From positions 1 through 34,172 of the forward strand of contig JAQGOF010000088.1 in NCBI GenBank assembly GCA_028293745.1: a stretch of DNA of 34,172 nucleotides, read 5' to 3'. Positions 17,982 through 32,187 of this stretch are shown here, in pieces. The notes under the pieces are model-generated. The model searched no databases, was not told where the DNA came from, and saw only the letters and a program-made list of their open reading frames with translations. Position 1 is the stretch's first letter, and every line of letters begins with the position of its first letter. This stretch comes from Gammaproteobacteria bacterium. GTDB taxonomy: Bacteria; Pseudomonadota; Gammaproteobacteria; Steroidobacterales; Steroidobacteraceae. The position numbers and the translations under genes were made by a program.

Positions 17982-19806
17982 CCGCCTCGCCTTCCAGCAA
18001 TGCCAACACTTCGGCGCGCGCGGCAGCCGAATGCACGAGTAGTGCAAGTACGTCCCCGGGTTGCGCCCACTCCAGGGCACACCGTGCGGCATCAACTTCG
18101 GTCATTTTTAGAGGCAGCGCCGACTCGGGCAACCCGGCACGCAGCAGAGCGGCGCGAATGATACGAGGTACCTCTCCCTGCTCCCGGCCGCGAAGCTGCC
18201 CGTCGTTTTCCTTTACAACGACGAGGTCCGGATGGAATTGCGCGGCGACCCGTGCCAGCTCCTCGATCTCCGCGTTGCGCCGATTGCCGGCATGCCCCAG
18301 AAGCAGGCCCATCCGCCCCACACCGCCCCGCAGATGTTCCGCAACACGCAGCAGCCCACGCAATCCATCGGCGTTATGAGCATAGTCAAGGACAACCCGC
18401 ACGCCCCCGATATCGAACCGCATCATTCGCCCGAGGTTGTCAGACGGCTTCGAACCGAAACGCGCGAAAACCGAAGCGACCACGGAAGCCGGTATTCCCA
18501 GCGCAACGGCGCCCAGCGCGGCGCCGGCGAGATTGGCGATGTTGTACACAGCGCTGCCATCGACAGTCAGCGGCATTGACGCGATTGAACCCAAGTCGTG
18601 CTCGAGACTATTGTGAAACAGGTACAATCGGTCATTGCGAACGCCGCACGTGGAGCCACCACGAGAACGATGCTCAACGAGAAATCCGTCGTCCGCATCC
18701 AGCGCGAACCATCCCAGGAACGGACAACGACCGTACCGCTCAACGAGCCCACCGACCTTGACACGGAGCAGGGAATCGTCGGCATTCAACACCAGCAAGC
18801 CGCCAGGACGTATGACTGAAGCGACCGAGAGCTTCACGTCGGCCAATCCATCGAGGTCGAAGATGCCATACTCCCCAAAGTGATCCGAACTCACATTGGT
18901 CACTAACGCAACCTGTGCCTCTGACACGGCGATTCCCCTGCGCAGAATCCCGCCGCGCGCCGTTTCGAGAATCGCCGCTTGCGCGCGCCGCTCCCGCAGT
19001 GCCATTCGCCCGCCCGCAGGTCCCGAATAATCCCCGGCATCAATGAGCTCGGCGTCGAAAGTTACGCCATCAGTCGAGCTGTAGGCGACGTGCCATCCAT
19101 GGGCACGCGAACAGGCGGCAAGAAGGCGCACGCTGGTCGTCTTCCCGTTGGATCCAGTTACAAGGGCAGTTGGAATGCCATGCAACGTAGTCCACGGGAC
19201 GTCACGTACCGCTGGCAGATCCTCCAACGGAAAATCGGCTCCGCCTGCACCGGTGCCGAGCGTCAGAAGCGTGTCATCAAGAACATACGGCAAGTCTCGC
19301 GCCTTTGCGGCCGCGATCAATGATTGCAGGCGCGGACGCTTCTCGGCGGCGGCGAGTCGCTCGAAGCGAGCAAACGCCGCGGACTCCTCCAACACCGGCG
19401 GAATCACAGAATGACGGTCGTCTGCATCCTCGAGTGCTGCCTGATGGAGCGCTTCCTGCAGGAAACCCCAGCGACCGGGATCGCGCTCCAACAGAGCGGA
19501 ACACAACGCCCATTCATTGACTTCCGTCGCCACAAACAGTTGATCACACGGTGCCGCGAATGCCAAAGACGAGGACGGGCGGGAGAGGTCGCGACTTCCG
19601 GGCCGGTGCACCCGCGCCACGGTATCCGAACGCTCCCAGCCCAGCCGTCCCCGAGCCCGCGCAACGCGGCTCCGCCACTCATCGAGCAGCCCATCATCAA
19701 CCACGTCGGCAACCACCTCGAGCACCGCACCGGTGGAGGCAAAAAACAGGTTAGCGCCGGTAAGGCGCCTCGAGTCTTCGAATGGCAGCGTAGTCGTGAC
19801 GCTCAA
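17974..19806 (-). CDS. Mur ligase family protein, cyanophycin-synthetase-like, without ATP-grasp domain
   Basis: The 610-residue protein has a Mur-type ligase domain: P-loop TGSNGKTTS (residues 217-225), the CphA-like AILETARGGILRRG, nucleotide-side VLDYAHN and GHAGNRRNAEIEELA. These mirror the last two domains of CphA1 (LETARGGLLRAG, FDYGHN, GPGDRRNEDL). The first 205 residues are not ATP-grasp and I do not recognise them. Half of the CphA1 chemistry is therefore missing: it could add one amino acid to a carboxylate but could not alternate Asp and Arg addition alone. It starts with TTG in a TTGA overlap with the cphA1 stop; GGAGG is only one base away, so reinitiation after cphA1 is likely. 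Confidence 0.82.
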   Translation of the reverse strand: MSVTTTLPFEDSRRLTGANLFFASTGAVLEVVADVVDDGLLDEWRSRVARARGRLGWERSDTVARVHRPGSRDLSRPSSSLAFAAPCDQLFVATEVNEWALCSALLERDPGRWGFLQEALHQAALEDADDRHSVIPPVLEESAAFARFERLAAAEKRPRLQSLIAAAKARDLPYVLDDTLLTLGTGAGGADFPLEDLPAVRDVPWTTLHGIPTALVTGSNGKTTSVRLLAACSRAHGWHVAYSSTDGVTFDAELIDAGDYSGPAGGRMALRERRAQAAILETARGGILRRGIAVSEAQVALVTNVSSDHFGEYGIFDLDGLADVKLSVASVIRPGGLLVLNADDSLLRVKVGGLVERYGRCPFLGWFALDADDGFLVEHRSRGGSTCGVRNDRLYLFHNSLEHDLGSIASMPLTVDGSAVYNIANLAGAALGAVALGIPASVVASVFARFGSKPSDNLGRMMRFDIGGVRVVLDYAHNADGLRGLLRVAEHLRGGVGRMGLLLGHAGNRRNAEIEELARVAAQFHPDLVVVKENDGQLRGREQGEVPRIIRAALLRAGLPESALPLKMTEVDAARCALEWAQPGDVLALLVHSAAARAEVLALLEGEAGG

Positions 19807-22625
19807 TCCTCCGCATCAGGTGCAACCCGCACACCACGCTCGTCTCGAATCAGCCCTTCGAGGTTGAACACGGTTGGCGGACCTTCGCCCACTAATGGAA
19901 CACCCTCGGCGATCTTGCGGATGATCTCCCGATCCAACGGTTTGAATGCCCGTTCGGCCGGTTGCGGCACCGCCACGCCTGCGGGTTTGAATTTGGTGAT
20001 CTGCTTCCATGAGCGCGCCAATGCGTCCGCGAAGATGAGCAGCAGATCGCCCGGCTGGCCCATATTCAGGGCGGCCGCGACGGCCTCCTGCTCATCGGGG
20101 ATGACGGAGATCGCATCCTCGCGAACGCCGGCGGCGCGCAGCGCTTGCGCCTGGATTCGGGGTACTTCATCCGTCGCCCGATCGCGCAGATTGTCGTCAC
20201 GGCGGCAGATGTAGTGATCGAAGCGACCCGCAACCGCGTTTGCAATAGCTACGAGATCTTCGTTCCGCCGGTCACCCGGACCGGCAAGCACTACGATACG
20301 CCGGCCTGTCACATCCAGGCGCTGAGCAAGGTCGGCCATGACCGCGACCGCATGGGCGTTGTGTCCATAGTCGAACAGCACCTTGAATGGGTGCTCGTTG
20401 AATACATTGAGCCGGCCCGGAGCCTGGAAGAACGTCGAGTCGAACGTGCGTAACCCTTGTCGGATGGCGTCGAGCTTGATCCCCAGAGAAAACGCCATTG
20501 CGGCTGCAAACATGGCGTTCTGAACGTTATGTGTTGCGCGGCCTTCGAGCGTCGCCGGAATCAGATGAGTCCAGAGCAGCGGGATGTGGCCACCGCGGTC
20601 GTATAGCGTGATCATCTGGCCATTCACACCCGCCTCTAGCGCACAAGCCCGGCCGCTCGCGCGGATGTGCTCGCGTACCAGTGTATGTTGCGGGTTCATC
20701 GTGACGTAGCAGATGTTCTTGGCGTCAGTATGCCCCGACATCTTGAGCACGTGCGGATCGTCTGCATTCAACACCGCGCAGTCAGTCGCAACCTCCACGA
20801 CAATGCGTTTGACTTCGGCGAGTTGCTCAAGCGTGTCGATGCCCTTCAGGCCCAGGTGGTCGGCCTGGACATTCAGCACGGCGCCGACGTTGACCTCTCT
20901 GACTCCCATGCCCGCGCGGAGCAATCCGCCACGGGCCGTTTCCAGCACTGCGATATCTATCTGCGGATCAGCAAGAACCATTCGTGCCGACACCGGGCCG
21001 GTCATATCGCCCTGCACGGTTCGCTGGCCGTCTATGTAGACGCCATCTGTGGTCGTCAGTCCCGGCGTATAGCCGGCCATCTTCGTCACATGAGCCAGCA
21101 TCCGCGCAGTCGTCGTTTTGCCGTTGGTGCCGGTGATCGCCGCAATGGGTACCCGCGAGTGCGAGCCCTGTGGAAATAACATGTCGATGACCGGTGCGGC
21201 GACATCGCGCGGCGTGCCTTCACTCGGCGCCACATGCATCCGGAATCCCGGCGCCGCATTGACTTCGCAGATCCCGCCACCAATCGCGCGATAGCTCTCA
21301 GTAATGTTCTTCGACAGAAAATCCACGCCGCCGACATCCAATCCAATCGCGCGCACAGCTCGTTCAGCCATCTCGCGATTGTCCGGATGAATTACGTCAG
21401 TGACATCGGTCGCTGTACCGCCGGTGGAGAGATTGGCGGTCGATCGCAGGTAGACGATCTTGCCTTTATCCGGCACAGACTCGGCTTGCAGACCGGCACG
21501 GTCCAACATCTTTTGCGCCTGCGCGTCGAGCTCGAGCCTCGTCAACACCTTCTCATGGCCGACGCCGCGGCGCGGATCCTGGTTCACAAGGTCAACGAGC
21601 TGCGCAATCGTGTGCTCGCCGTCACCCACGACGTGCCCGGGAGTCCGGCGGGTCGCGGCGACCAGCTCGCCCTGCACTACGAGGAGCCGGTGGTCATCCC
21701 CCTCGAGGAAAGTCTCCACGATCACCGAACGAGAATGCTCCCGTGCGACCAGGAACCCCTGCGTAACTTCCTCATCCGTCGTGAGCCGAATGGAGATTCC
21801 GCGGCCATGATTGCCGTTGTATGGCTTGGTCACCACGGGAAACCCGATACGGCGCGCGGCGCGCACCGCCGCAGCCTCGGTCTGCACGAGCTCCTGGGTC
21901 GGCACCGGCAGGCCGAGAGTGGCGAGGATCTTGTTGGTCTCCTCCTTGTCGCTGGCCAGCTCCACGGCGATATGGGGCGTCCTCCCTGTGACGGTCGCCT
22001 GGATACGCTGTTGGTATTTCCCGTGTCCGAGTTGGACTAACGACTGATCGTTGAGGCGCAGCCACGGGATTCCGCGGTTCTCGGCGGCCTTCACCAGGGA
22101 TGCGGTGGAGGGACCTAGCGCGCGACGCTGCGCGAAGCGGATGAACTCATCTCGCGCCTCGGGCCAGTTCCAATCTTCCGGTACCGCACCTGCCGGCCGG
22201 ATCTCCCCAGGCAGCAGGGAGGACAGCAGACGCAGGCCGAGCTCGCCGGCGGCGATTCCTTCATCACGCTGCGCATACTCGTAGACAACCGTGTAGACAC
22301 CCGGTCGCCCCGCGCCGCGGGTTTTCCCAAACGTGACTTCCTCACCAGCAATGTTCTGCAGCTCGATGGCCACATGCTCGAGCACGTGACCGAGCCATGT
22401 CCCCTCGTCCTCACGCATGCGGCGGAAAAACCCGCCAGGCTCGCCATACGAGCATCCGTGTTCGGCCAGACCCGGGAGGGCCAATGCGAGGGCATCGACA
22501 AATCCGCTACCCAGCCGGCCGGTGGGCCATTCCTCGAGTTCGCCGAGGTCCAGTTCCAGCCGGATGACGGGAAAGCGCGCGTGCAGCGACGGGCCAACGT
22601 AGACCGAACGATCCAGGATCCGCAT
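19803..22625 (-). CDS. cphA: Cyanophycin synthetase
   Basis: The 940-residue protein starts MRILDRSVYVGPSLHARFPV, diagnostic of CphA1. The N-terminal domain (1-160) is followed by an ATP-grasp domain (about 215-490, with GNHGRGI at 271-277 and GGICEVNAAPGFRMH at 449-464) and a Mur-ligase domain (P-loop GTNGKTTT at 499-506, later LETARGGLLRAG and FDYGHNAHA). The ATP-grasp part adds Asp to the backbone and the Mur part adds Arg to the Asp side chain, making the cytoplasmic storage polymer cyanophycin from Asp, Arg and ATP. The C-terminal extension (KPAGVAVPQPAER..., about 65 residues) is typical of non-cyanobacterial members. Its Shine-Dalgarno (GAGGAG, 5 nt before ATG) is part of the structured repeat. 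Confidence 0.96.
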   Translation of the reverse strand: MRILDRSVYVGPSLHARFPVIRLELDLGELEEWPTGRLGSGFVDALALALPGLAEHGCSYGEPGGFFRRMREDEGTWLGHVLEHVAIELQNIAGEEVTFGKTRGAGRPGVYTVVYEYAQRDEGIAAGELGLRLLSSLLPGEIRPAGAVPEDWNWPEARDEFIRFAQRRALGPSTASLVKAAENRGIPWLRLNDQSLVQLGHGKYQQRIQATVTGRTPHIAVELASDKEETNKILATLGLPVPTQELVQTEAAAVRAARRIGFPVVTKPYNGNHGRGISIRLTTDEEVTQGFLVAREHSRSVIVETFLEGDDHRLLVVQGELVAATRRTPGHVVGDGEHTIAQLVDLVNQDPRRGVGHEKVLTRLELDAQAQKMLDRAGLQAESVPDKGKIVYLRSTANLSTGGTATDVTDVIHPDNREMAERAVRAIGLDVGGVDFLSKNITESYRAIGGGICEVNAAPGFRMHVAPSEGTPRDVAAPVIDMLFPQGSHSRVPIAAITGTNGKTTTARMLAHVTKMAGYTPGLTTTDGVYIDGQRTVQGDMTGPVSARMVLADPQIDIAVLETARGGLLRAGMGVREVNVGAVLNVQADHLGLKGIDTLEQLAEVKRIVVEVATDCAVLNADDPHVLKMSGHTDAKNICYVTMNPQHTLVREHIRASGRACALEAGVNGQMITLYDRGGHIPLLWTHLIPATLEGRATHNVQNAMFAAAMAFSLGIKLDAIRQGLRTFDSTFFQAPGRLNVFNEHPFKVLFDYGHNAHAVAVMADLAQRLDVTGRRIVVLAGPGDRRNEDLVAIANAVAGRFDHYICRRDDNLRDRATDEVPRIQAQALRAAGVREDAISVIPDEQEAVAAALNMGQPGDLLLIFADALARSWKQITKFKPAGVAVPQPAERAFKPLDREIIRKIAEGVPLVGEGPPTVFNLEGLIRDERGVRVAPDAED

Positions 22626-22633
22626 CGGTTCTC

Positions 22634-22743
22634 CTCTTGCGCAGGCGTTCGCCTGCTCACCGTCGATCCGGGGCATCGCTCGCGCGCTGCCCGTGCAACG
22701 CATGCGTTGCACCCTCTTGCGCAGGCGTTCGCCTGCTCACCGT
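22634..22743 (-). repeat. Three-hairpin structured repeat element upstream of cphA, with extra terminal hairpin copy
   Basis: Read on the minus strand the order is hairpin H2 (22743-22714), H1 (22711-22694), Hm (22692-22671), H2 again (22663-22634). H1 is a perfect palindrome TGCAACGCATGCGTTGCA; Hm pairs GGGCA with TGCCC over a 12-nt loop; H2 pairs GCAGGCG with CGCCTGC over an AA loop. The two H2 copies are identical over 30 bp. The last copy runs into GCAAGAGGAG, the ribosome binding site of cphA. Together with the flanking bases it fills the 144-bp gap between cphB and cphA, the only long gap in the operon. A related H1-Hm-H2 unit occurs at 30517-30598. Confidence 0.85.
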
Positions 22744-22769
22744 GCTGCTGCCAGGAGGACCGAAAGCCC

Positions 22770-23609
22770 CTATTCCTTCGGTCGGATCAGCGCACCTGCC
22801 GCAGCGGTTCTTGTGTGCAAATTGAACGTAGCGCCTGCGACGAGGAAGTGCAACCGCAACCCGAGCATACAAACCGGCTGGCCGTCAGAAACAGCATCAA
22901 TGGAGGAGTAGCTGATATCCGACCCGTCAACAATCGTGATCGCGCCGCTGCCTTCCACCTCCAGCGTGTCGTCAGGCCCGATAAAGGCGGCCGTGTCCTC
23001 ATCCAGGCCAATGCCGATGGCAAACGGGTTGTAGGCCAGGGCGGTGCACAGGCGCCCGAGGCGGTCGCGCTGGCGGAAGTGCTGGTCAATGATGAAGCGA
23101 TTCGTGAGCCCGAGCCCCGGGGCGAGCTTTACGCTCCCGCCTATGGCCGATGAACCCTCGTCACCCGAGGCGATCATGTGCTCGCTCAGAATGCTGGCAC
23201 CCGCGCTCGTTCCGCCGACCGTGACCCCATTGGCATTGCGAGCTCGGATCAGCTTCGCGACGGGCGTGCCGCCCAGGAGTGTCGTGACTCGCAACTGATT
23301 GCCGCCCGTGAAGAAGATGCCGGTCGCCTCTTCAATGCGGCCCAGGCGGCCCGGCTCCTGGCAGTCACGACGGGTGTCGAAATCCATGACCGTGACACGG
23401 GCGGCACCGATCTCGCAGAACAGTTGCTCGTACCGCGACCCGGTCTCATGCATGCGGCTCGCTGTCGGGATCACAACAATGTCAGCAGCTGCACCGCCGC
23501 AGACGCGCACGAAGCGCTCGAGAATCCGGCGGTCATTTTCCTTGTTCTCGGCGCCGCCGATCGGAACGATCCAACCGCGCGCCCGACCCTCTGGCACCTT
23601 ACTTGGCAT
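22770..23609 (-). CDS. cphB: Cyanophycinase (serine peptidase S51)
   Basis: The 279-residue protein is of normal length for CphB. Ser135 in GGTSAG is the nucleophile, with His177 (DQHFRQRDR) and Glu204 (GLDEDTA); all three are offset by three residues from the triad I recall for Synechocystis CphB. No signal peptide is visible, so it acts in the cytoplasm on cyanophycin, releasing beta-Asp-Arg dipeptides. ATG 23609 overlaps the end of the upstream amidohydrolase gene by 11 bp. The unusual extra is not in the enzyme but in the 144-bp structured gap that separates it from cphA. Confidence 0.94.
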   Translation of the reverse strand: MPSKVPEGRARGWIVPIGGAENKENDRRILERFVRVCGGAAADIVVIPTASRMHETGSRYEQLFCEIGAARVTVMDFDTRRDCQEPGRLGRIEEATGIFFTGGNQLRVTTLLGGTPVAKLIRARNANGVTVGGTSAGASILSEHMIASGDEGSSAIGGSVKLAPGLGLTNRFIIDQHFRQRDRLGRLCTALAYNPFAIGIGLDEDTAAFIGPDDTLEVEGSGAITIVDGSDISYSSIDAVSDGQPVCMLGLRLHFLVAGATFNLHTRTAAAGALIRPKE

Positions 23610-24855
23610 ACACCATTCCGCCCTTCATCACGAAGCGAACGGCACGCACAGACTGAACATCTCGAATGGGATCACCCTCCACGGCAACCAGGTCGGCCAG
23701 CAACCCTGACCTGATAGTGCCAATCTGATCGCCCATGTGGAACGAGTGAGCATTACCCGAAGTGGCTGCTATCAGCACCTGGGCCGCAGACATACCCGCG
23801 GCCACCATCAATTCTATCTCACGCGCGTTCTGGCCGTGAGCAAACACGCCGACATCCCCTCCGACGCACATGGTCACGCCTGCAGCTCGGGCGATATCAA
23901 AAGCCTTACGCGCCTGGGCAACCGGGGGTGGCGCAGGATCGGCGCCGTTCCAGCCACGATATCGGGCAACCGCGTCGGATGCCGCGAGTGTCGGGCAATA
24001 AGTCACACCGTGCTCCCGCATCAGCTTGAAGACTTCCGGCGTGCCTTCGCCCCCGTGCTCGATGGAATCGACACCTGCCAGAATGGCCCTGCGCATGCCT
24101 TCCGCAGTGTTCGCATGAGCGGCCACAATGCGGCCTGCACTGTGCGCCGCCTCGACAGCAGCTCGCATTTCAGCCTCGCTGAATGTTGGCCGACTCGGCT
24201 CACCGGGGCGCCAATGATAGTCCGCATATAACTTGACCACGTCGGCGCCAGCGCCTATCTGACGCCGCACAGCCGCTACCAGGCTGGCGCCGTCCGCTTC
24301 TTCCGCGCCTTGCGGAATGACCAGGCCCGCCTCGAATCCCTTCGGTCCGTAGGCACCTGTTGCAACCAGCGCACGAGTCGCTACCAGCATCCGCGGCCCC
24401 GGAATAATACCCTGCTCAATGGCCTGCTTGAGACCGACATCGGCGTAACCTGCGCCCTCAGTGCCCAGGTCCCGGACCGTCGTGAAGCCCGCCATCAATG
24501 TTGCCTTCGCAGCCACTGTAGCTCTTGCAGTTCGAACAGCCAGCGGCTCGTGTAGCACCTGGTCGTCCCACGGTGTTTCGTTGTAGGGATGGAGGAACAG
24601 ATGGGAATGTCCTTCGATGAGGCCGGGCATCAGCGTATCGCCAGGTAACTCCACTACAGTTGCATCCGGTGGAGCGGCGATTGCGGGCCCGGCTGCCTCG
24701 ATCTTGTCGCCTCGAACGAGCACCGCCCATCCCTCGTGAGGCTTCGGATCAACTCCGTCGAAGACTCTCGCCGGTTTCAGAAGATAGGCCGGATCCGCCG
24801 CCGCCATGGCCGTGTAGAGAGTCACAACGAGAATGAAGGTGAGCCGCGCGATCAT
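23599..24855 (-). CDS. Secreted amidohydrolase in the cyanophycin operon, candidate dipeptidase
   Basis: The 418-residue protein has a signal peptide (MIARLTFILVVTLYTAMAAA) and a complete amidohydrolase metal site: His83 and His85 (GHSH), Lys208 (VVKLY), His247 (AHANT), His267 (SIEHG) and Asp334 (GGD). It is clearly a paralogue of the protein at 15011-16321, with shared FTTVRDLGTEGAGYADVG-like and IPGPRM segments. Some relatives hydrolyse dipeptides ending in Arg or Lys, so a role in splitting beta-Asp-Arg is attractive, but the signal peptide suggests export while cyanophycin is cytoplasmic. The start overlaps the acylase stop (ATGA) and the end overlaps cphB by 11 bp. Confidence 0.86.
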   Translation of the reverse strand: MIARLTFILVVTLYTAMAAADPAYLLKPARVFDGVDPKPHEGWAVLVRGDKIEAAGPAIAAPPDATVVELPGDTLMPGLIEGHSHLFLHPYNETPWDDQVLHEPLAVRTARATVAAKATLMAGFTTVRDLGTEGAGYADVGLKQAIEQGIIPGPRMLVATRALVATGAYGPKGFEAGLVIPQGAEEADGASLVAAVRRQIGAGADVVKLYADYHWRPGEPSRPTFSEAEMRAAVEAAHSAGRIVAAHANTAEGMRRAILAGVDSIEHGGEGTPEVFKLMREHGVTYCPTLAASDAVARYRGWNGADPAPPPVAQARKAFDIARAAGVTMCVGGDVGVFAHGQNAREIELMVAAGMSAAQVLIAATSGNAHSFHMGDQIGTIRSGLLADLVAVEGDPIRDVQSVRAVRFVMKGGMVYAK

Positions 24856-27008
24856 TTCAATACCTCCCGGCTCTCAACATGACCCTCGAGATCAGCGGGG
24901 TAGAAATACACCTTGCGGAAGTTACCGTCCGCATAGCGTTGTGCCTGATCCAGGAAATGCCGCGAGGCCGGATCGCCGCTCTCGCCACCCACACTGATCG
25001 CCCAGGCCTCCAGCTTCGGGCCGAACTCCACCGATGCGATAAAGCTGTTACCGCGAGTGCCGTAGTAACACTTGGTTCCAGGGTAGCGCTTCGCGCCGAA
25101 GGCGGCGAGGGATCCCCACTGCGAGGAAGTAAAAGCGATGGGGATGCTGGGCCTCGTGTCGCTGAAAGACTGCACGAGGGCGCCGTAGTTGCGCTGGAAA
25201 CGGTTGATCACGCCCCAGCGCACCGAAACGCTGCCAAAATCCTTCACCAACCGTTCCGAAGCCTCGACAAGAGCCGCTAGCCGCTGCGCATCGCTGGTGC
25301 GCTCCGCCATGTAATCCCACACGGAGATATCGGCATCCTCCGCGGGCTGCGCCGAGACCGCCCACAGCGCTTCGCCCCAAAATACAGCCAACGATGTCGG
25401 TGCCGAATCCAGGCCCCACCGATAGTCCCAGTTACGCAGAAGTCTGATCGGAGCGCGCAACCTCGCCTTGTTCGAATCACTTTCCGGCAGTCGGTCGTAC
25501 GATGCCAACAGGACGGGCACGAGCCGGGCGAAAGCGGGCAGGTAAGGATCGAACGCCGCAGAGATCAACGTCTGCGGGGTAAAATCCCTGCGTGCGGTCA
25601 ACACGCGGACGGCGTGAATACCGCGCGGGTTCTCGCCAACCTGGTCCATGTAGCGTGGGAAGTCGGCTTTCTTTGGGCTGTCAGCGCCGGCGGACGTCCA
25701 CGGCCAGTTGTTCGTGTTCATCGCCCACCCATTGGCCGGTGTCACAACCTGCGGCAGGCTCTCGAGACTATGCAAGCCCTTCCAATCCGTAGCCGGATCA
25801 CTACCATCCACGGGCTTGCGATAGTCGAACCGGTTGTCGCGCACGGGCACGAATTGCGGATGCAGGTAGGCGATCTCGCCCTTCGAATCGGCAAACAGGG
25901 TGTTGTTTGTCGAGTTGGCCTGAAGGCGGGCGGCTTCCATGAAGCTTGTGAGATCCGTGGCCTTGGTGCGCAGAAAGGATTGCTCGAGCGCCGGCACGGG
26001 CCGGTTCATCAGGGCGAACGCGATCCACTTGCCGCCTTCCTCGCGCACAATCGGCCCATGATGGCTGGCGAACGTCACGAAATCGCGCCTGGCCAATGAT
26101 CCGTCTGCGGTGCGATAGGACAGCGTAATGGTCTTCGAGGTCAGGGGCCGCAATTCGTTGCCATAGCGATAGGACGGCACACCATCGGGTCCGACGGCGG
26201 TGGTCTCCGCGAATTCATCCACATTGTCAACACCACTCGAGGTGTGCATCCAACCGGCGTGAGCGTTGAATCCCTGGTAGATGAAGAACTGCCCCCAGGT
26301 CGCCGCCCCGTATGCATTCAGCCCTTCGTCGCTCGTCACCTGCAATTCCGAGCGGAAAAAGAAGCTGGTATGCGGATTGATGAGCAGCAGCGCATGCCCG
26401 TTCTTCGTATGCGAGGGAGCAATGGCAAAACCGTTCGAGCCCTGCGGCTCACGGTACGCCAGCCTGCTCTGCGCCTGTGTCATCGCCACGGCTTTCTTGT
26501 CGTGCTTGTTGTCATATAGGGCTTGCAGCTGTTTGAGCTGCACGAGCTCGATGTCACCGCCAATGCTGCCCTCGGTGAAACTCAGCGCCATCCAGGGCTC
26601 GAATTTCGTGAGTACCCGTGGGTGGACGTTTGGATGAGTCGTCAGATAGTAGTTGAGGCCGTCCGCCCACGCCTGCATCAGGTTCCTGAGCCAGGGTGGG
26701 CTGCTGGCATAGTCCGCCTGCAGTATCTGCGGGTCGATGAACAACCTCTGCCGAAGATCCTTCCAGATCGCCTCCACACCCTCCGCTTCGGCAAGCCGTC
26801 CAAGGTTGGTGAGGTAGTTGGTCTCCACGCGGTTGAAATCGTCCTCGGCCTGCGCATAGATCATGCCGAACACGGCATCGGCATCGGTCTTGCCCTTTAC
26901 GTGCGCGATACCCCAATCATCGCGCGTAATCGTGACCCGATCTGTCGCCCAGGACGAGTTCGACACCATCAGTGCAAAGGATGCGGCGAGAGTAACCCGT
27001 ATCATCAT
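24852..27008 (-). CDS. Penicillin acylase family Ntn-hydrolase (acylase), exported
   Basis: The protein is 718 residues from ATG 27008 (a second ATG follows at 27005; an upstream TTG at 27023 is less likely). A signal peptide ending NSSWA precedes a small alpha region (to about 190). The autocatalytic cleavage point is Gly190-Ser191 (PQGSNGFAIAPSHT), Ser191 becoming the N-terminal nucleophile of the beta chain. Further family features are LLLINPHTSF, GWMHTSSGVDNVDEF and GWAMNTNNWPWT. Family members deacylate penicillins, acyl-homoserine lactones or aculeacin; the substrate here is unknown. It is the first gene of the cyanophycin operon and overlaps the amidohydrolase gene by ATGA. Confidence 0.87.
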   Translation of the reverse strand: MMIRVTLAASFALMVSNSSWATDRVTITRDDWGIAHVKGKTDADAVFGMIYAQAEDDFNRVETNYLTNLGRLAEAEGVEAIWKDLRQRLFIDPQILQADYASSPPWLRNLMQAWADGLNYYLTTHPNVHPRVLTKFEPWMALSFTEGSIGGDIELVQLKQLQALYDNKHDKKAVAMTQAQSRLAYREPQGSNGFAIAPSHTKNGHALLLINPHTSFFFRSELQVTSDEGLNAYGAATWGQFFIYQGFNAHAGWMHTSSGVDNVDEFAETTAVGPDGVPSYRYGNELRPLTSKTITLSYRTADGSLARRDFVTFASHHGPIVREEGGKWIAFALMNRPVPALEQSFLRTKATDLTSFMEAARLQANSTNNTLFADSKGEIAYLHPQFVPVRDNRFDYRKPVDGSDPATDWKGLHSLESLPQVVTPANGWAMNTNNWPWTSAGADSPKKADFPRYMDQVGENPRGIHAVRVLTARRDFTPQTLISAAFDPYLPAFARLVPVLLASYDRLPESDSNKARLRAPIRLLRNWDYRWGLDSAPTSLAVFWGEALWAVSAQPAEDADISVWDYMAERTSDAQRLAALVEASERLVKDFGSVSVRWGVINRFQRNYGALVQSFSDTRPSIPIAFTSSQWGSLAAFGAKRYPGTKCYYGTRGNSFIASVEFGPKLEAWAISVGGESGDPASRHFLDQAQRYADGNFRKVYFYPADLEGHVESREVLK

Positions 27009-27082
27009 GGTCAAACCTATCAATACCTATTGCCTCAGCGTAGACTTTTTTTGTGCCGGCCGAAATCGTCTGGGGTGCGTCG

Positions 27083-28762
27083 ATGAGATCCATTGTCACT
27101 GTTTGCGCAATCGTCCTCGTGTGCGTAGCTCGCACATCCGCGGCAGCACAGACATTCGATGTCCTCATCCGGAATGGTCACCTCATGGATGGCACGGGGT
27201 CGCCGTGGTACTCGGGTGACATCGGCATCCGCAATGGCCGGATAGCCGCGCTCGGACGCCTTGGCGACGCGACGGCCAAGACGACCATCGATGCAAAGAA
27301 TCTGCTAGTCACCCCCGGCTTCATCGACATGCTCGGTCAGTCGGAGATGACCATCCTGGTCGAGCCGCACCTGCCCTCGAAAATCTTTCAAGGCATCACC
27401 ACCGAAGTCACCGGCGAAGGCAACTCGGTGGCACCCATCAGCGACCGTACGATCGAGTCCGATCGCCCCGGCTACGAGCACCTGAAGATCAACCCCGACT
27501 GGCGCACGCTGTCGCAATACTTCACACGGCTGGAACGCCAGGGCATGGGCATCAACCTGGCAACGTACGTCGGCGCAACATCCGTCCGCCGGGTGGTGAT
27601 CGGCGACGATGACCGCGCCCCCAGCCCGCAAGAGCTCCAACAGATGAAGCAACTGGTGGCCGAGGCGATGCACGACGGCGCCTTCGGACTGTCAACAGCG
27701 TTGCAGTACGCGCCAGCGCCCTACGCCAGCACCGAGGAACTGATCGCACTTGCATCCGAAGCCGGCCGATATGGAGGCATCTATTCGACACATATGCGCT
27801 CTGAGCAGAACGGCATCATGCAGGCGATCGACGAAACCATCCGCATCGGCCGCGAAGCGCACGTGCCGGTCGAGATCTGGCATTTGAAGACCGCTGGCAA
27901 GTCCCAATGGGGCAAGATGAAGGAAGTGATCGCGAAAATCGAAAACGCCCGTGCGAGCGGTGTTGACGTGACCGCGGACACCTATGCCTATACGGCGTGG
28001 TTCAACAGCTTCTCGGCCTTCGTGCCTCCCTGGGCACATGACGGCGGCCAGGCGAAGTTGATCGAACGGATGAAGGATCCAGTGACGCGGGCGCGGATTC
28101 GCAAGGACATGACCACTCAAACTACAGAATGGGATAACGAATGGCTTGCCATTCCGGGGCCCGAGTCGATCCTGATCTGTGTCGTGCAGAATCCGGCGCT
28201 GCGACCTCTTCAGGGCAAGACCTTGGCGCAGGTGGCGGCATCACGCCACCAGGATCCCATCGATGCCCTGCTCGACATCCTGATCGAAGACAAAGCCTAC
28301 ACGTCGGTCGCCGTGTTTGGCATGGAGGAAAATGACGTGGCACTGGCACTCGCGCAGCCCTGGGTGGCGATCGACAATGACTCGCAAGGAACAGCACCTG
28401 CAGGTATTCTGGGACAGGAGCATCCACACCCGCGTGCGTATGGCACCTTTCCTCGTGTTTTGCGGAAGTACGTCCGCGAGGAGCATCGCTTGACTCTGCA
28501 GGATGCCATCCGCAAGTTCACATCGCTGCCCGCTCAGCGGCTGGGCTTGACGGATCGCGGCGTGCTCAAGCAGGGAATGTGGGCGGACATCGCCATTTTC
28601 GATCCGGAGCAGATTCACGATGTGGCCACTTTCGAGAATCCCAACCAGTTGTCGGTCGGCATTCAGTATCTGCTCGTGAACGGCGTCCCGGTCATCGCCG
28701 GGGGTAAGGCCACCAATGCACTGCCGGGCAAGGCATTGCGCGGCCCGGGGTATCAGCAATGA
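27083..28762 (+). CDS. Exported N-acyl-D-amino-acid deacylase family protein with altered metal motif
   Basis: The protein is 559 residues from ATG 27083 (GGGG 8 nt ahead), with a signal peptide ending RTSAAA. The fold matches the D-aminoacylase branch of amidohydrolases (DVLIRNGHLMDGTGSPWYSGDIGI, STHMRSEQNG, DAIRKFTSLPAQRLGL). The classic PGFIDxHxHxD motif reads PGFIDMLGQSE (about 78-88), so both metal-binding His are absent, and the Cys of the usual GNCG motif is replaced by GEGNS (111-115). His237 and His267 remain. I have seen this GQSE type in other environmental genomes (recollection), so it is probably a subfamily rather than a damaged gene. It is divergent from the acylase across 74 bp, and its stop overlaps the next start (ATGA). 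Confidence 0.82.
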   Translation: MRSIVTVCAIVLVCVARTSAAAQTFDVLIRNGHLMDGTGSPWYSGDIGIRNGRIAALGRLGDATAKTTIDAKNLLVTPGFIDMLGQSEMTILVEPHLPSKIFQGITTEVTGEGNSVAPISDRTIESDRPGYEHLKINPDWRTLSQYFTRLERQGMGINLATYVGATSVRRVVIGDDDRAPSPQELQQMKQLVAEAMHDGAFGLSTALQYAPAPYASTEELIALASEAGRYGGIYSTHMRSEQNGIMQAIDETIRIGREAHVPVEIWHLKTAGKSQWGKMKEVIAKIENARASGVDVTADTYAYTAWFNSFSAFVPPWAHDGGQAKLIERMKDPVTRARIRKDMTTQTTEWDNEWLAIPGPESILICVVQNPALRPLQGKTLAQVAASRHQDPIDALLDILIEDKAYTSVAVFGMEENDVALALAQPWVAIDNDSQGTAPAGILGQEHPHPRAYGTFPRVLRKYVREEHRLTLQDAIRKFTSLPAQRLGLTDRGVLKQGMWADIAIFDPEQIHDVATFENPNQLSVGIQYLLVNGVPVIAGGKATNALPGKALRGPGYQQ

Positions 28763-30516
28763 GCACTCAGCCGCTGACGACACTCGCCGAGGAGTCCAAC
28801 TTCCGGCAGACGGGACGGATTGATGAAGTCGAACGGTTGAGCCGCGAGTTTGCGGAGGCCTGGCCCGAAGCTGTCCGCTCGTTCGAATATGGCCGCTCGG
28901 CCGAAGGGCGGCCCCTGCGGGCGCTGATTGTCTCCCGCACCGGCGCCCTGACTGCCGCGGACATCCGCGCCCGGAGAATTCCGCTGCTCATGCTTCAAGG
29001 CGGCATCCATCCGGGCGAGAGTGACGGCAAGGATGCAGGCTTCATCGCGATTCGCGAGCTGCTGAAAGGGGTGGCCGCCGGGGATGTGCTGCAGAGGATA
29101 GCCATCCTGTTCGTACCCGCATTCAACACTGACGGCCACGAGCGGACTGGGCGCTGGAACCGGCCCAACCAAAACGGGCCCGAGGAGACCGGCTGGCGCA
29201 CCACCGCGCAGAACCTGAACTTGAATCGCGACTACACCAAGGCGGACGCACCGGAGATGCAGGCCATGCTGCGCCTGATTGATGTTTGGGATCCGCTGGT
29301 CTGCGCGGACCTGCATGTCACCGACGGTGCCGACTTCGAGCCGGATGTGTCCATCCAGGTCGAGCCCATCAACCAGGGGGATCCGGACTTGCGCGCGAGC
29401 GGGGTGCAGTTGCGCGACCAACTCATCGCCAGGCTTGCCGCGCAAGGCTCGATGCCGCTCGATTTTTATCCTGACCTGGCGAAGACGGACGATCCGTCAT
29501 CAGGATTTGCGTTGACAGTGTACTCGCCGCGCTTCTCGACAGGATATTTCCCGCAGCGCAATCGGTTCACGGTCCTCGTGGAAACGCACTCGTGGAAGGA
29601 ATACGCACTGCGCGTGCGAATCACGTTCAAGACCATCGTGAGCCTCGCCAAGTTGGTGGGCGCGCACGGCACCGAGTGGCTGAAGTCGTGCAACGAGGCC
29701 GATGTGACTGCAACGAGATTGGGCGGAACCGAGGTCACACTGGATTACGTGACTCGATGGCGTGAGCCTGCGAGGGCCGGGTCTGCAACGAGCGAGCGCG
29801 ATGACGAGGACGCGCGGATGATCGAGTTTCGAGGCTACGCATACACGCGCACCGAGTCTGCAATCTCGGGCGGGTTGGTCACGGCCTACGATCCGAAGAC
29901 TCCCCAGATCTGGCGCGTGCCCATGCGTGATGCAGTAAAGCCATTGCTGGTAGTCAAGGCGCCGGGCGCGGGTTACGTGGTGCCCGTGTCATTTGCGTCG
30001 CAGATCGCTCCGCGGCTGGAAGCTCATGGCATTGCGTTCGAGCCGGTACAACAGCGGCGGGCCGCGGTGACGGCCGAGACATTTCGTGCCCGGCGCGTCA
30101 AATTCTCGGCAACTCCATTCGAAGGCCGGATGCGCGCTCAACTGGAGGGGACGTGGAACGAGCAGCCGGTCAACATCGAGGCCGGGGCCCTGTTCGTACC
30201 GGTTGCCCAACCGTTGGCTCGACTGGTGGCCGCCCTGCTCGAGCCGCAAGCCCCCGACTCGTTTGCCGCGTGGGGCTTCTTCAACGCGTGTTTCGAGCAG
30301 AAGGAACAAATGGAGCCTTACGTGGCCGAGCAGATTGCTGCCGGCATGTTGGCCGCGGATGCGGGTTTGCGGGAAGAGTTCAATGCGAAGCTTCAGGCTG
30401 ACCCCGAGTTCGCCCGCAGTCCCAGCGACCGGTTGGAGTTCTTCCTGCGCAGGCACACTTCTTGGGACGAGCGCTATAACCTTTACCCTGTGCTGCGGTT
30501 GAACACGCCGCTCTAG
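28759..30516 (+). CDS. M14 family zinc carboxypeptidase
   Basis: The 585-residue protein has the M14 zinc site: His84 and Glu87 in GGIHPGES, His186 in CADLHVTDG, and catalytic Glu275 in VLVETHSWKEY. Arg/Asn substrate-side residues appear in NLNLNRDY (152-159). No signal peptide is visible, although the preceding deacylase has one. A C-terminal beta-rich region (about 370-585) is extra to the minimal domain. It removes C-terminal residues from peptides; specificity cannot be read. The ATG overlaps the deacylase stop by 4 bp. The 99-bp gap that follows holds the second copy of the structured repeat. Confidence 0.86.
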   Translation: MSTQPLTTLAEESNFRQTGRIDEVERLSREFAEAWPEAVRSFEYGRSAEGRPLRALIVSRTGALTAADIRARRIPLLMLQGGIHPGESDGKDAGFIAIRELLKGVAAGDVLQRIAILFVPAFNTDGHERTGRWNRPNQNGPEETGWRTTAQNLNLNRDYTKADAPEMQAMLRLIDVWDPLVCADLHVTDGADFEPDVSIQVEPINQGDPDLRASGVQLRDQLIARLAAQGSMPLDFYPDLAKTDDPSSGFALTVYSPRFSTGYFPQRNRFTVLVETHSWKEYALRVRITFKTIVSLAKLVGAHGTEWLKSCNEADVTATRLGGTEVTLDYVTRWREPARAGSATSERDDEDARMIEFRGYAYTRTESAISGGLVTAYDPKTPQIWRVPMRDAVKPLLVVKAPGAGYVVPVSFASQIAPRLEAHGIAFEPVQQRRAAVTAETFRARRVKFSATPFEGRMRAQLEGTWNEQPVNIEAGALFVPVAQPLARLVAALLEPQAPDSFAAWGFFNACFEQKEQMEPYVAEQIAAGMLAADAGLREEFNAKLQADPEFARSPSDRLEFFLRRHTSWDERYNLYPVLRLNTPL

Positions 30517-30598
30517 GATGCGACACACGTGTCGCACGGGTGGCCAGAAGGGACACCCAGGAGCGATGGTGAGCGGGCGCACGCCCGCGCAAGAGGAG
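30517..30598 (+). repeat. Three-hairpin structured repeat element upstream of the second DNA ligase gene
   Basis: It has the same order as the main unit before cphA: H1 (30519-30536, TGCGACACACGTGTCGCA), Hm (GGGTG 30538-30542 with CACCC 30554-30558) and H2 (GCGGGCG/CGCCCGC with a CA loop), then GCAAGAGGAG. Compared with the cphA copy, stem differences come as compensating pairs: two in H1 (A-T to G-C, G-C to A-T), two in Hm (C-G to T-A, A-T to G-C) and one in H2 (A-T to G-C). It begins right after the stop codon of the M14 gene. Confidence 0.85.
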
Positions 30599-30615
30599 CC
30601 TTGTCAGGGGTCCAG

Positions 30616-32187
30616 ATGACTCTACTCGCCAATCTAGTGGAAACTTCGCAGCGCGTGGGCGCCACTTCCGGTCGCCTCGCAAAGGTGCGCGAGCTTGCCG
30701 CCCTTCTGCGCGCTCTACAGCCAGACGAGATCGAGACGGGTGTGCACTATCTGTCTGGCGAGTTACCGCAGGGCCGTATCGGCATCGGATACGCAGCTTT
30801 GCAGACCGCCGCCTCCAACCCGCCGGCGGCCGCGGCGACACTCTCCGTTGCCGAGGTAGATAGCCTGCTGACGAGCATTGCCGAAATTCGCGGCCCAGGC
30901 TCGACCGCGAATCGTGCTGCGGCGCTGGCTGGCCTGTTTTCGCGAGCAACAGAAGCGGAGCAGCATTTCCTGCTGCGCCTTCTGACTGGCGAGTTGCGGC
31001 AGGGTGCGCTGGCGGGTGTCATGGTCGAGGCGATTGCGTCGGCTGCGGAAATTCCGGTCGCGCAGGTACGGCGCGCGGCCATGTACGCGAAGAGCCTCGG
31101 CGCGGTGGCTCGTGTCGGGCTGCTGGAAGGTTCAACAGCCCTGGCCCAATTCCACCTCGAGCTGTTTTCGCCGGTGTCTCCCATGCTTGCACAAACCGCT
31201 GCGGATGTAGCCGAAGCGCTCAGTGTGCTGGAGGGTGATGTTGCCTTCGAGTGGAAGATGGATGGCGCACGGATACAGGTCCACAAGGTTGATACGGATG
31301 TCCGCATCTACACCCGGAGCCTGAACGAAGTCACCGACGCTATTCCGGAAGTCGTCGAGACGGTGCGCGCGTTGCCAGCCCGGGTGTTGGTACTGGATGG
31401 CGAGGCAATAGCATTCGATGCGGCGGAACGGCCGCATCCCTTCCAGGTCACGATGCGTCGCTTCGGCCGCAAGCTGAATGTCGAAAAGTCGCGCGCCAAG
31501 CTGCCCATGCGCGCGTTCTTCTTCGACTGCCTGCATTACGAGGACCAGAGCATAGAGGATCAACCCGCGCGGGTACGCCTCGAGGCACTCGCGAAGGCAG
31601 TCCCGTCCACCGCGCAAGTGCCGCGGTTGATCACCAGATCGGAATCAGCGGCGCGTGAATTCTACGATGCCGCACTGGCCGCAGGGCACGAAGGCCTCAT
31701 GGCGAAGGCGTTGGACACGCCATACGAAGCCGGAAATCGCGGCGCAGGATGGGTCAAGATCAAACGTGCCCACACTCTCGACCTCGTGGTGCTGGCCGCG
31801 GAGTGGGGTCACGGCCGCCGCACCGGCAAACTATCAAACTTGCACCTGGGCGCACTGGATCCGGCCACGGGACAGTACGTCATGTTGGGAAAGACGTTCA
31901 AGGGCCTGACGGACAACCTGCTCGAGTGGCAGACGAAGGAATTCCTCGCTCGCGAAACACACCGCGACCAGTGGACCGTCTACGTCCGGCCCGAACTCGT
32001 CGTGGAGATTGCCTTCAGCGACCTTCAGGAGAGCAGCCGTTATCCAGGCGGCCTCGCACTGCGGCTCGCGCGCGTGAAGCGCTATCGCGAGGACAAACAC
32101 GCGTCCGACGCGGATAACATGGACACGGTGCGCCAGATTCACGCGGCGCAAAGCGGCATCTCTCATGAGACCGACAAGCCCGCCTGA
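30616..32187 (+). CDS. ATP-dependent DNA ligase, LigB type
   Basis: The protein is 523 residues from ATG 30616, which has AGGGG 5 nt ahead; an in-frame TTG at 30601 is an alternative start. An N-terminal DNA-binding domain (about 1-180) is followed by the adenylation domain with nucleophile Lys214 in EWKMDGAR, then LVLDGEAIAF, FFFDCLHYE and EGLMAKAL, and an OB-fold (WTVYVRPELVVEIAFSDLQ). The length fits the archaeal-like LigB group. In many bacteria LigB sits with an Lhr-type helicase, an MBL-fold exonuclease and a phosphoesterase; none of these is beside it here. It ends 50 bp before a convergent phosphatase gene. With LigC, it is the second ATP-dependent ligase in this window. Confidence 0.9.
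   Translation: MTLLANLVETSQRVGATSGRLAKVRELAALLRALQPDEIETGVHYLSGELPQGRIGIGYAALQTAASNPPAAAATLSVAEVDSLLTSIAEIRGPGSTANRAAALAGLFSRATEAEQHFLLRLLTGELRQGALAGVMVEAIASAAEIPVAQVRRAAMYAKSLGAVARVGLLEGSTALAQFHLELFSPVSPMLAQTAADVAEALSVLEGDVAFEWKMDGARIQVHKVDTDVRIYTRSLNEVTDAIPEVVETVRALPARVLVLDGEAIAFDAAERPHPFQVTMRRFGRKLNVEKSRAKLPMRAFFFDCLHYEDQSIEDQPARVRLEALAKAVPSTAQVPRLITRSESAAREFYDAALAAGHEGLMAKALDTPYEAGNRGAGWVKIKRAHTLDLVVLAAEWGHGRRTGKLSNLHLGALDPATGQYVMLGKTFKGLTDNLLEWQTKEFLARETHRDQWTVYVRPELVVEIAFSDLQESSRYPGGLALRLARVKRYREDKHASDADNMDTVRQIHAAQSGISHETDKPA

Follow-up and report, generated by a model that had tools for sequence, protein, structure and literature searches.

Dispersed repeats are usually regarded as passive elements or as terminators, and leaders that mask the Shine-Dalgarno (SD) sequence as gene-specific. 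The window analysed here, a 34,172-nt stretch of contig JAQGOF010000088.1 from a gammaproteobacterium of the family Steroidobacteraceae (assembly GCA_028293745.1), carries two copies of an element, one in front of cphA and one in front of ligB, in which three hairpins (H1, Hm, and H2) lead up to an SD. The closest described leaders are the ROSE-like thermometers, which, in the available excerpts of two reports, comprise three to four hairpins with the SD in the 3' hairpin, where imperfect, non-canonical pairing is flanked by G-C pairs (PMC3669281, PMC12857270). In our model, the present element is ROSE-like in layout without the ROSE motif and disperses like repetitive extragenic palindromes (REPs), and masking of its SD is predicted.

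We give about an even chance to the reading that the elements before cphA and ligB belong to a dispersed repeat of 80 nt that acts as a portable translational leader, which would partly mask the SD in a covarying basal stem of H2. The repeat occurs in five related genomes, with one to about twenty copies each, and the modelled structure suggests that it likely tunes the protein output of the gene behind it. Central to this reading is the segment between Hm and H2 (GGATCGAC in the cphA copy and GGAGCGAT in the ligB copy), which is no free linker: it covaries with the SD region across the family.

The initial annotation had described two units with a common layout, differing by five compensatory pair changes and lying in the long gaps of their operons. 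Both were found as placed (22633-22712 on the minus strand and 30517-30598 on the plus strand), with the hairpins ordered H1, Hm, H2 and with GCAAGAGGAG as their common end; reading the sequence of both units confirmed the five differing pairs, of which H1 and Hm have two each and H2 has one, and the gaps of 144 and 99 nt stand out as long in their respective operons according to the list of open reading frames (ORFs). That each unit ends in an SD held for the cphA copy, whereas the ligB copy is an imperfect example because its GGAG stands 17 nt from the ATG and 2 nt from an in-frame TTG. The two copies themselves are real, but they are not the only ones: the host genome holds 33 matches at E<1e-6, and the window contains a partial third copy. 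In folding, both units beat nearly all dinucleotide shuffles (z of -2.96 and -2.79; 2 of 200 shuffles at least as good in each case). Two covariance models underlie what follows: R1, built from 13 host units (alignment A2), and the leader-specific R2, built from 27 units (23 from the host and 4 from relatives; alignment A3) with the three-hairpin structure entered by hand. The parts of the two elements are as follows.

22631..22712, minus strand: full leader unit of cphA, from H1 to the SD (R2 match of 106.2 bits at 22628-22713; sequence)
22693..22712, minus strand: H1 of the cphA copy, a 20-bp perfect palindrome, GTGCAACGCATGCGTTGCAC (sequence, fold)
22671..22692, minus strand: Hm of the cphA copy, the hairpin being closed by a GNRA tetraloop, GCGA (sequence)
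22662..22669, minus strand: SD-facing strand of the cphA copy, GGATCGAC, with N = T22666 and N' = A22630 (family covariation of N-N' and two C-G pairs)
22638..22659, minus strand: H2 upper stem of the cphA copy, TGAGC..GCGCA, with a conserved A.G mismatch (covariation)
22631..22634, minus strand: SD GGAG, the 3' strand of the H2 basal stem, 5 nt from the cphA ATG at 22625-22623 (sequence, placement test)
22713..22741, minus strand: incomplete tandem copy consisting of H2 alone, offset from the cphA unit by 80 nt in the upstream direction
30517..30598, plus strand: full leader unit of ligB, from H1 to the SD (R2 match of 84.0 bits; sequence)
30519..30536, plus strand: H1 of the ligB copy (sequence, fold)
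30538..30558, plus strand: Hm of the ligB copy (sequence, fold)
30560..30567, plus strand: SD-facing strand of the ligB copy, GGAGCGAT, with N = G30563 and N' = C30599 (covariation over the family)
30570..30591, plus strand: H2 upper stem of the ligB copy (sequence, fold, covariation)
30595..30598, plus strand: GGAG of the ligB copy, 17 nt to the ATG at 30616 and 2 nt to the in-frame TTG at 30601 (fails the spacing test)

Without being given this pairing, RNAalifold joined the supposed linker to the SD region. The stem places 5'-GGA N C G A C-3' opposite 5'-G G A G N'-3', i.e., the anti-SD strand GGANCGAC faces GGAGN' through N-N', C-G, G.A, A.G, and C-G, with the tandem G.A mismatches in mid-stem. 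Among the 36 leaders whose linker fits a fixed pattern, N and N' were paired in 35 (UA in 26, CG in 4, GC in 3, and UG and GU in 1 each, with GA in the remaining copy). Watson-Crick pairs were present in 33 of the 36, whereas 200,000 shuffles averaged 21.2 and never exceeded 30; without the copy in front of the host leuA (L031), which uses a GGAG downstream of the element's own end, the count was 32 of 35. With N paired to the next base or to the second next base instead, the counts were 15/35 and 6/35, respectively. A weakly resolved tree of 35 copies implied some 10 switches between pair states, so that the pattern does not go back to a single inherited change.

The remainder of the stem was followed in a 48-copy alignment (MAFFT, indels uncorrected), which consisted of the 42 leaders that passed the placement test described below together with L014, L028, L031, L116, L125, and L035. 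A standard pair stood at N-N' in 40 copies and at the two C-G pairs in 44 and 38, respectively, and double changes were found at N-N' in 10 copies, from CG to UA in 2, and from CG to GC in 2. The mismatches were G.A in 35 copies and A.G in 41, and the anti-SD strand read N, C (41/48), G (41), A (45), C (37). Over the 11 pairs of the SD half, 38 double-change cells were counted versus 10.3 in shuffles (0/500 as high). In the 5' members of tandem arrays, as read by eye, GTGC replaces AGN' after AGG and the outer C-G pair is gone; the SD stem is thus intact only where a start codon follows.

The proposal that the copies keep structure rather than sequence was borne out by the whole unit. In A3, 96.7% of cells were paired, compared with at most 60.7% when the partner was slid, and changes on both sides occurred in 10 of 24 pairs. 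The 58 double-change cells exceeded the 15.6 of shuffles, none of 500 being as high; because related copies can exceed shuffles without structure, the pair-type count and the slid controls weigh more. A GNRA tetraloop closes Hm in 23 of the 27 copies, which suggests a constraint at the RNA level.

Searching the host and related genomes with a covariance model, as had been proposed, yielded both further copies and covariation. R1 gave 53 matches in the host genome at E<=0.1, sister types and tandem copies included, and the 33 noted above are among them. At E<=1e-4, R2 had matches in 20 of the 58 genomes searched within the genus, and leader-type copies with the SD end were found, among the matches listed, in five genomes: the host (G000), G077, G078, G009, and G047. 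The copies read from genomes outside these five carriers were sister repeats, which have H1 and Hm in common and a different end without an SD; sister copies are present in carriers too (G000, G077, and G078). An order-wide R2 scan of 396 genomes, in which 11 candidates were scored per genome and weak copies were thus missed, gave at least 16 genomes with a match, from three genera that all belong to the host's family; in the other genera of this family, three readable loci of seven (L206, L207, and L210) were sister repeats without an SD. The exact leader pattern matched two stretches in a collection of 84,980 species, from which the host was possibly left out. Membership in an Rfam family was rejected, as the whole window and 15 loci gave no match above the curated threshold, and the cphA and ligB elements scored far below it even at E up to 10. 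Carriage by phages or plasmids was likewise rejected: at the sensitivity used, the leader pattern had no match in viral contigs and the cphA copy had none in plasmid and phage records. Tandem arrays with a period of ~80 nt, joined at AGG or GG, were seen at L032/L075, L041/L076, L022/L030, L027/L036, L016/L034, L142, and L116, and the largest held three copies, one of them partial (G078, C72).

Several neighbouring arrangements were also recorded. At L070 (host contig C90, 27986-28737), two leader-like copies ~600 bp apart and one sister copy surround an ORF resembling an ECF sigma factor and the next ORF (named by eye), and in both leader-like copies the innermost pair of the SD stem takes its rare G-C form. 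The H1 palindrome GGTGCGACGCATGCGTCGCACC recurs alone in the host genome, apart from the three-hairpin unit (e.g., L080, L082, L083, L084, and L086). A separate subfamily without an SD (L039, L040, L042, L049, L135, L138, and L144) is closed by a long outer inverted repeat, exemplified by CTTTTCCCGGGGGC ... GTCCCGGGAAAGGC in L039. In relatives, the sister repeats L107, L108, L095, and L047 (G065, G079, and G050) have the hairpin ends CCAUGGAUGG and GCAGCAGGGACUGC, and G050 alone gave 36 R2 matches. Their ANGGA loops resemble CsrA/RsmA binding sites, and such sister repeats, many per genome, could act as a CsrA sponge if transcribed.

Placement was assessed on the 77 matches listed for the five carrier genomes (80 of at least 40 bits, out of 102, minus three duplicates). 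A match passed when an SD core stood at its end with an ATG or GTG 4-11 nt behind, opening a frame of at least 80 codons (at least 35 if it ran off the stretch). Of these matches, 43 passed, versus 295 of 28,000 random positions (1.05%) in the same DNA. One of the passes (L016) is the 5' member of a tandem pair; without the six 5' tandem members, 42 of 71 passed, with at least 18 in the host, 15 in G077, 6 in G078, 2 in G009, and 1 in G047. Five copies that end in an SD by eye were scored as failures for spacing or frame length (L014, L028 (the ligB copy), L031, L116, and L125). In 13 of the 42 passing copies, the element is preceded, at a distance of no more than 30 nt, by the end of a same-strand frame of 100 codons or more (counted from stop to stop).

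The genes behind the elements are unrelated and have no common theme, and a single-regulon riboswitch was therefore rejected. Ten downstream genes were scanned against Pfam, giving acyl-CoA dehydrogenase, LeuA, AcrB-type pump, DSBA, aldo/keto reductase, MASE1 kinase, DUF1800, RcnB, and CoA ligase, with one gene left without a family; cyanophycin synthetase also lies behind an element (Pfam), and FliE, AtpD, and GlmM were named by eye from translations, as were all other genes whose names Pfam did not supply. A leader peptide was discarded as well: one open frame runs through the element in the window, but across copies the downstream start is not in frame with it (by eye). The genes flanking the two elements in the window are listed below.

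19803..22625, minus strand: cphA, cyanophycin synthetase-like (Pfam Cyanophycin_syn, RimK, and Mur_ligase; ATG at 22625, the start being the same in the relatives' genes)
22770..23609, minus strand: peptidase S51 (cyanophycinase-like), the gene upstream of cphA (Pfam)
30616..32187, plus strand: ligB, ATP-dependent DNA ligase (Pfam DNA_ligase_A_M/N/C)
28759..30516, plus strand: M14 peptidase gene upstream of ligB, whose stop TAG abuts the element (ORF list, Pfam)

Comparison of equivalent junctions indicated that copies come and go, since some species have the element at a site where others lack it. For leuA, 55 of 58 genomes were matched, 30 loci were fetched, and 29 were readable; the full element was present in the host and G077, a remnant in G078, and none in 26. 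These 26 loci mostly show GGAG or GAGG ahead of the ATG by eye, with a different front gene in G047. The G078 remnant (L153) retains only GTGCGACGC, joined almost directly to GGAG, a loss that spared the ribosome-binding site. For cphA (18 loci), only the host has the element, and the 17 loci without it have a host-like upstream coding end. R2 run on all 48 leuA and cphA loci gave full copies at three loci only, the next best match scoring 19.5 bits. Some copies outlast their surroundings: the fadE element common to the host and G077 is identical in 70 of 83 columns, compared with 36 of 86 in the upstream flank, while the coding columns after the element agree in 66 of 76. Elements in front of glmM and a phosphatase-like gene are present in both G077 and G078.

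At the 5' border, AGG was found in 20 of 41 single leaders (L014, L028, L031, and L125 included) versus 54 of 3485 background positions, and also in 9 of 24 non-leader matches; four of the 20 leaders (L015, L032, L041, and L115) follow a partial copy that itself ends in AGG. Such a border would be in keeping with insertion at an SD or with the duplication of a few bases. An association with REP-associated tyrosine transposases (RAYT), which the initial annotation had suggested, did not hold up: Y1_Tnp (PF01797)/RAYT had no match in the five leader-bearing genomes (the host assembly being 91% complete), and mobilisation by a RAYT of the carriers was dropped as a candidate. Among nine genomes searched, a RAYT gene was present in two (G050 and G065), neither of which was a leader carrier among the copies read. 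By eye, no GTAG is conserved at the hairpin foot in A2 or A3, where the border reads AGGGTGC and the foot GACGGTGAGC, and assignment to the CGTC-tagged REPs was rejected because the tag has the wrong orientation. The alternative originally offered, a REP- or bacterial interspersed mosaic element (BIME)-like palindrome or an mRNA leader, was thus upheld in part: the repeat is dispersed and the SD lies inside the structure of leader-type copies, but the RAYT and tag features are missing.

If the elements are translational leaders, the N-N', C-G, and C-G pairs and the tandem G.A/A.G mismatches would hold GGAG in a metastable mRNA stem, to be opened by the ribosome, warmth, or a factor, and translation of the downstream gene would be lowered or made conditional. 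This stem would be kept closed by compensatory change and yet would never be strong, with three canonical pairs around two purine mismatches. H1 and Hm, with its GNRA loop, may fold independently and insulate the SD stem from the message of the upstream gene, whose stop codon is close to H1 in about a third of copies. Copies would have spread by insertion at AGG within or near the SD of operon junctions, the SD thereby being kept, and the tandem 80-nt arrays could have arisen via the flanking AGG repeats.

A number of results weigh against such a leader. In nearest-neighbour folding, the SD stem reached a mean probability over 35 copies of 0.34 (25 C) or 0.25 (37 C), with values of about 0 for the cphA and ligB copies themselves. 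With canonical pairs only, SD openness over 42 copies was 0.54, versus 0.49 in shuffled elements (p 0.017) and 0.39 behind the native flank (p 0.001); the SD is thus slightly more open than in controls, a result easier to reconcile with insulation than with strong masking. In the 48-copy alignment, 8, 4, and 10 copies fail to form the three SD-stem pairs, and the six of 11 pairs with double changes were equalled by 7 of 500 shuffles. The ligB copy departs from the expected spacing of GGAG and ATG (17 nt). Nine sister copies without a start codon (L038, L119, L120, L127, L128, L131, L133, L134, and L147) all fail the placement test, and, by eye, five of them (L038, L119, L120, L127, and L133) have GGCGG in place of GGAG, three read otherwise, and L147 has GGAG without a start codon. 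GGCGG would turn G.A into G-C, and the basal stem of the wider family may therefore act as DNA. Strong sequestration of the SD is unsupported by the folding energies and was set aside, although these results are not decisive because the nearest-neighbour model gives only rough energies for tandem G.A pairs and the 2x3 loop. A bolder extension, in which the family is a transposable riboregulator that masks SDs, inserts itself at ribosome-binding sites, substitutes its own tandem-G.A switch stem, and thereby brings dozens of genes without a common theme under a single control at the RNA level (by heat or by ribosome load), seems unlikely to us.

Given the sister repeats without an SD, a role at the DNA level is the main rival. 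The element may be a selfish repeat, similar to REPs or miniature inverted-repeat transposable elements (MITEs), whose hairpins are needed as single-stranded DNA for mobilisation and whose terminal SD only renders insertion harmless. We regard this as possible but doubtful. Its dispersed copies, tandem arrays of ~80-nt period, and occupied and empty junctions would be explained, as would the AGG border shared by leaders and other matches and the SD-less subfamilies within the same genus. However, no Y1_Tnp/RAYT was found in the five carriers, the 5' tandem copies (ending AGGGTGC) lack the outer C-G pair that stands before start codons (by eye), the fadE element outlives its flank, and the GNRA loops point to RNA.

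The stability of H1 and Hm and the 13 of 42 copies with an upstream frame ending within 30 nt would also suit an intercistronic element for mRNA processing or stability, in which strong hairpins part the message of the gene in front from that of the gene behind and the SD simply comes next; PMC2229807 describes such a mode of action for ERIC and NEMIS repeats. We nevertheless consider this quite improbable, as it leaves the covariation of the GGANCGAC strand with GGAGN' unexplained. To a sensing switch with a true regulon, i.e., an RNA thermometer or a leader bound by a ligand or protein through which the genes are controlled together, we assign a similarly low likelihood. The ROSE-like layout of three hairpins with the SD in an imperfect 3' hairpin (PMC3669281, in excerpt) speaks for it, and so does the steady weakening of the SD stem in silico, from 0.40 to 0.10 between 10 and 60 C; but the downstream genes show no theme, U(U/C)GCU is absent from the anti-SD strand in 48 of 48 copies, and Rfam gave no match above threshold. 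Finally, H1 might be a protein-binding operator and the remainder a passenger, in line with the 50 H1 matches in the host genome (up to 3 mismatches, inside and outside the units; control 0), yet H1 changes compensatorily without keeping a fixed site, and Hm and the SD stem covary too, which makes this very improbable.

Compared with known systems, the element, read as a translational leader, resembles the ROSE-like (and ROSE-G) thermometers, as far as excerpts of these reports describe them, in being a hairpin leader with the SD on the 3' strand of a last, imperfectly paired hairpin, although the pairing here is predicted and energetically weak. It differs from them in that neither U(U/C)GCU nor CUGCU occurs in the anti-SD strand (0/48), which instead reads GGANCGAC with tandem G.A, and in that it is dispersed before unrelated genes and not before heat-shock or ABC genes as a class. 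With REPs and REPINs mobilised by RAYT it shares its nature as a dispersed, multicopy extragenic palindrome with tandem copies in few species, but its unit comprises 80 nt, three hairpins, and an SD, GTAG was not seen to be conserved, and the carriers have no RAYT. The CGTC-tagged REPs are likewise dispersed palindromes without a linked transposase; in the excerpt of PMC3733652, each consists of one hairpin, its stem 8-9 bp long, plus a CGTC tag, whereas three hairpins and, by eye, an adjoining GACG on the other side are present here. Pneumococcal BOX, ERIC, and NEMIS/Correia elements are also modular or hairpin repeats in transcribed gaps that can affect their neighbours, but the available parts of PMC3049150 and PMC2229807 describe no SD of a downstream gene within a covarying stem, and none of the titles and abstract openings listed by searches of the open-licence literature describes a dispersed repeat of this kind. 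As with transposable elements in general, the same site is occupied and empty among relatives (the leuA and cphA junctions). What appears new is the predicted pairing of the supposed linker with the SD, all three canonical pairs being doubly changed. If true, it would offer a direct and testable example of a repeat that spreads translational control, and the 48 aligned copies would form a naturally replicated series on tandem G.A pairs holding a ribosome-binding site. The family would unite repeats and SD-masking leaders, with compensatory structure, an SD within a covarying stem, and site occupancy that varies among species.

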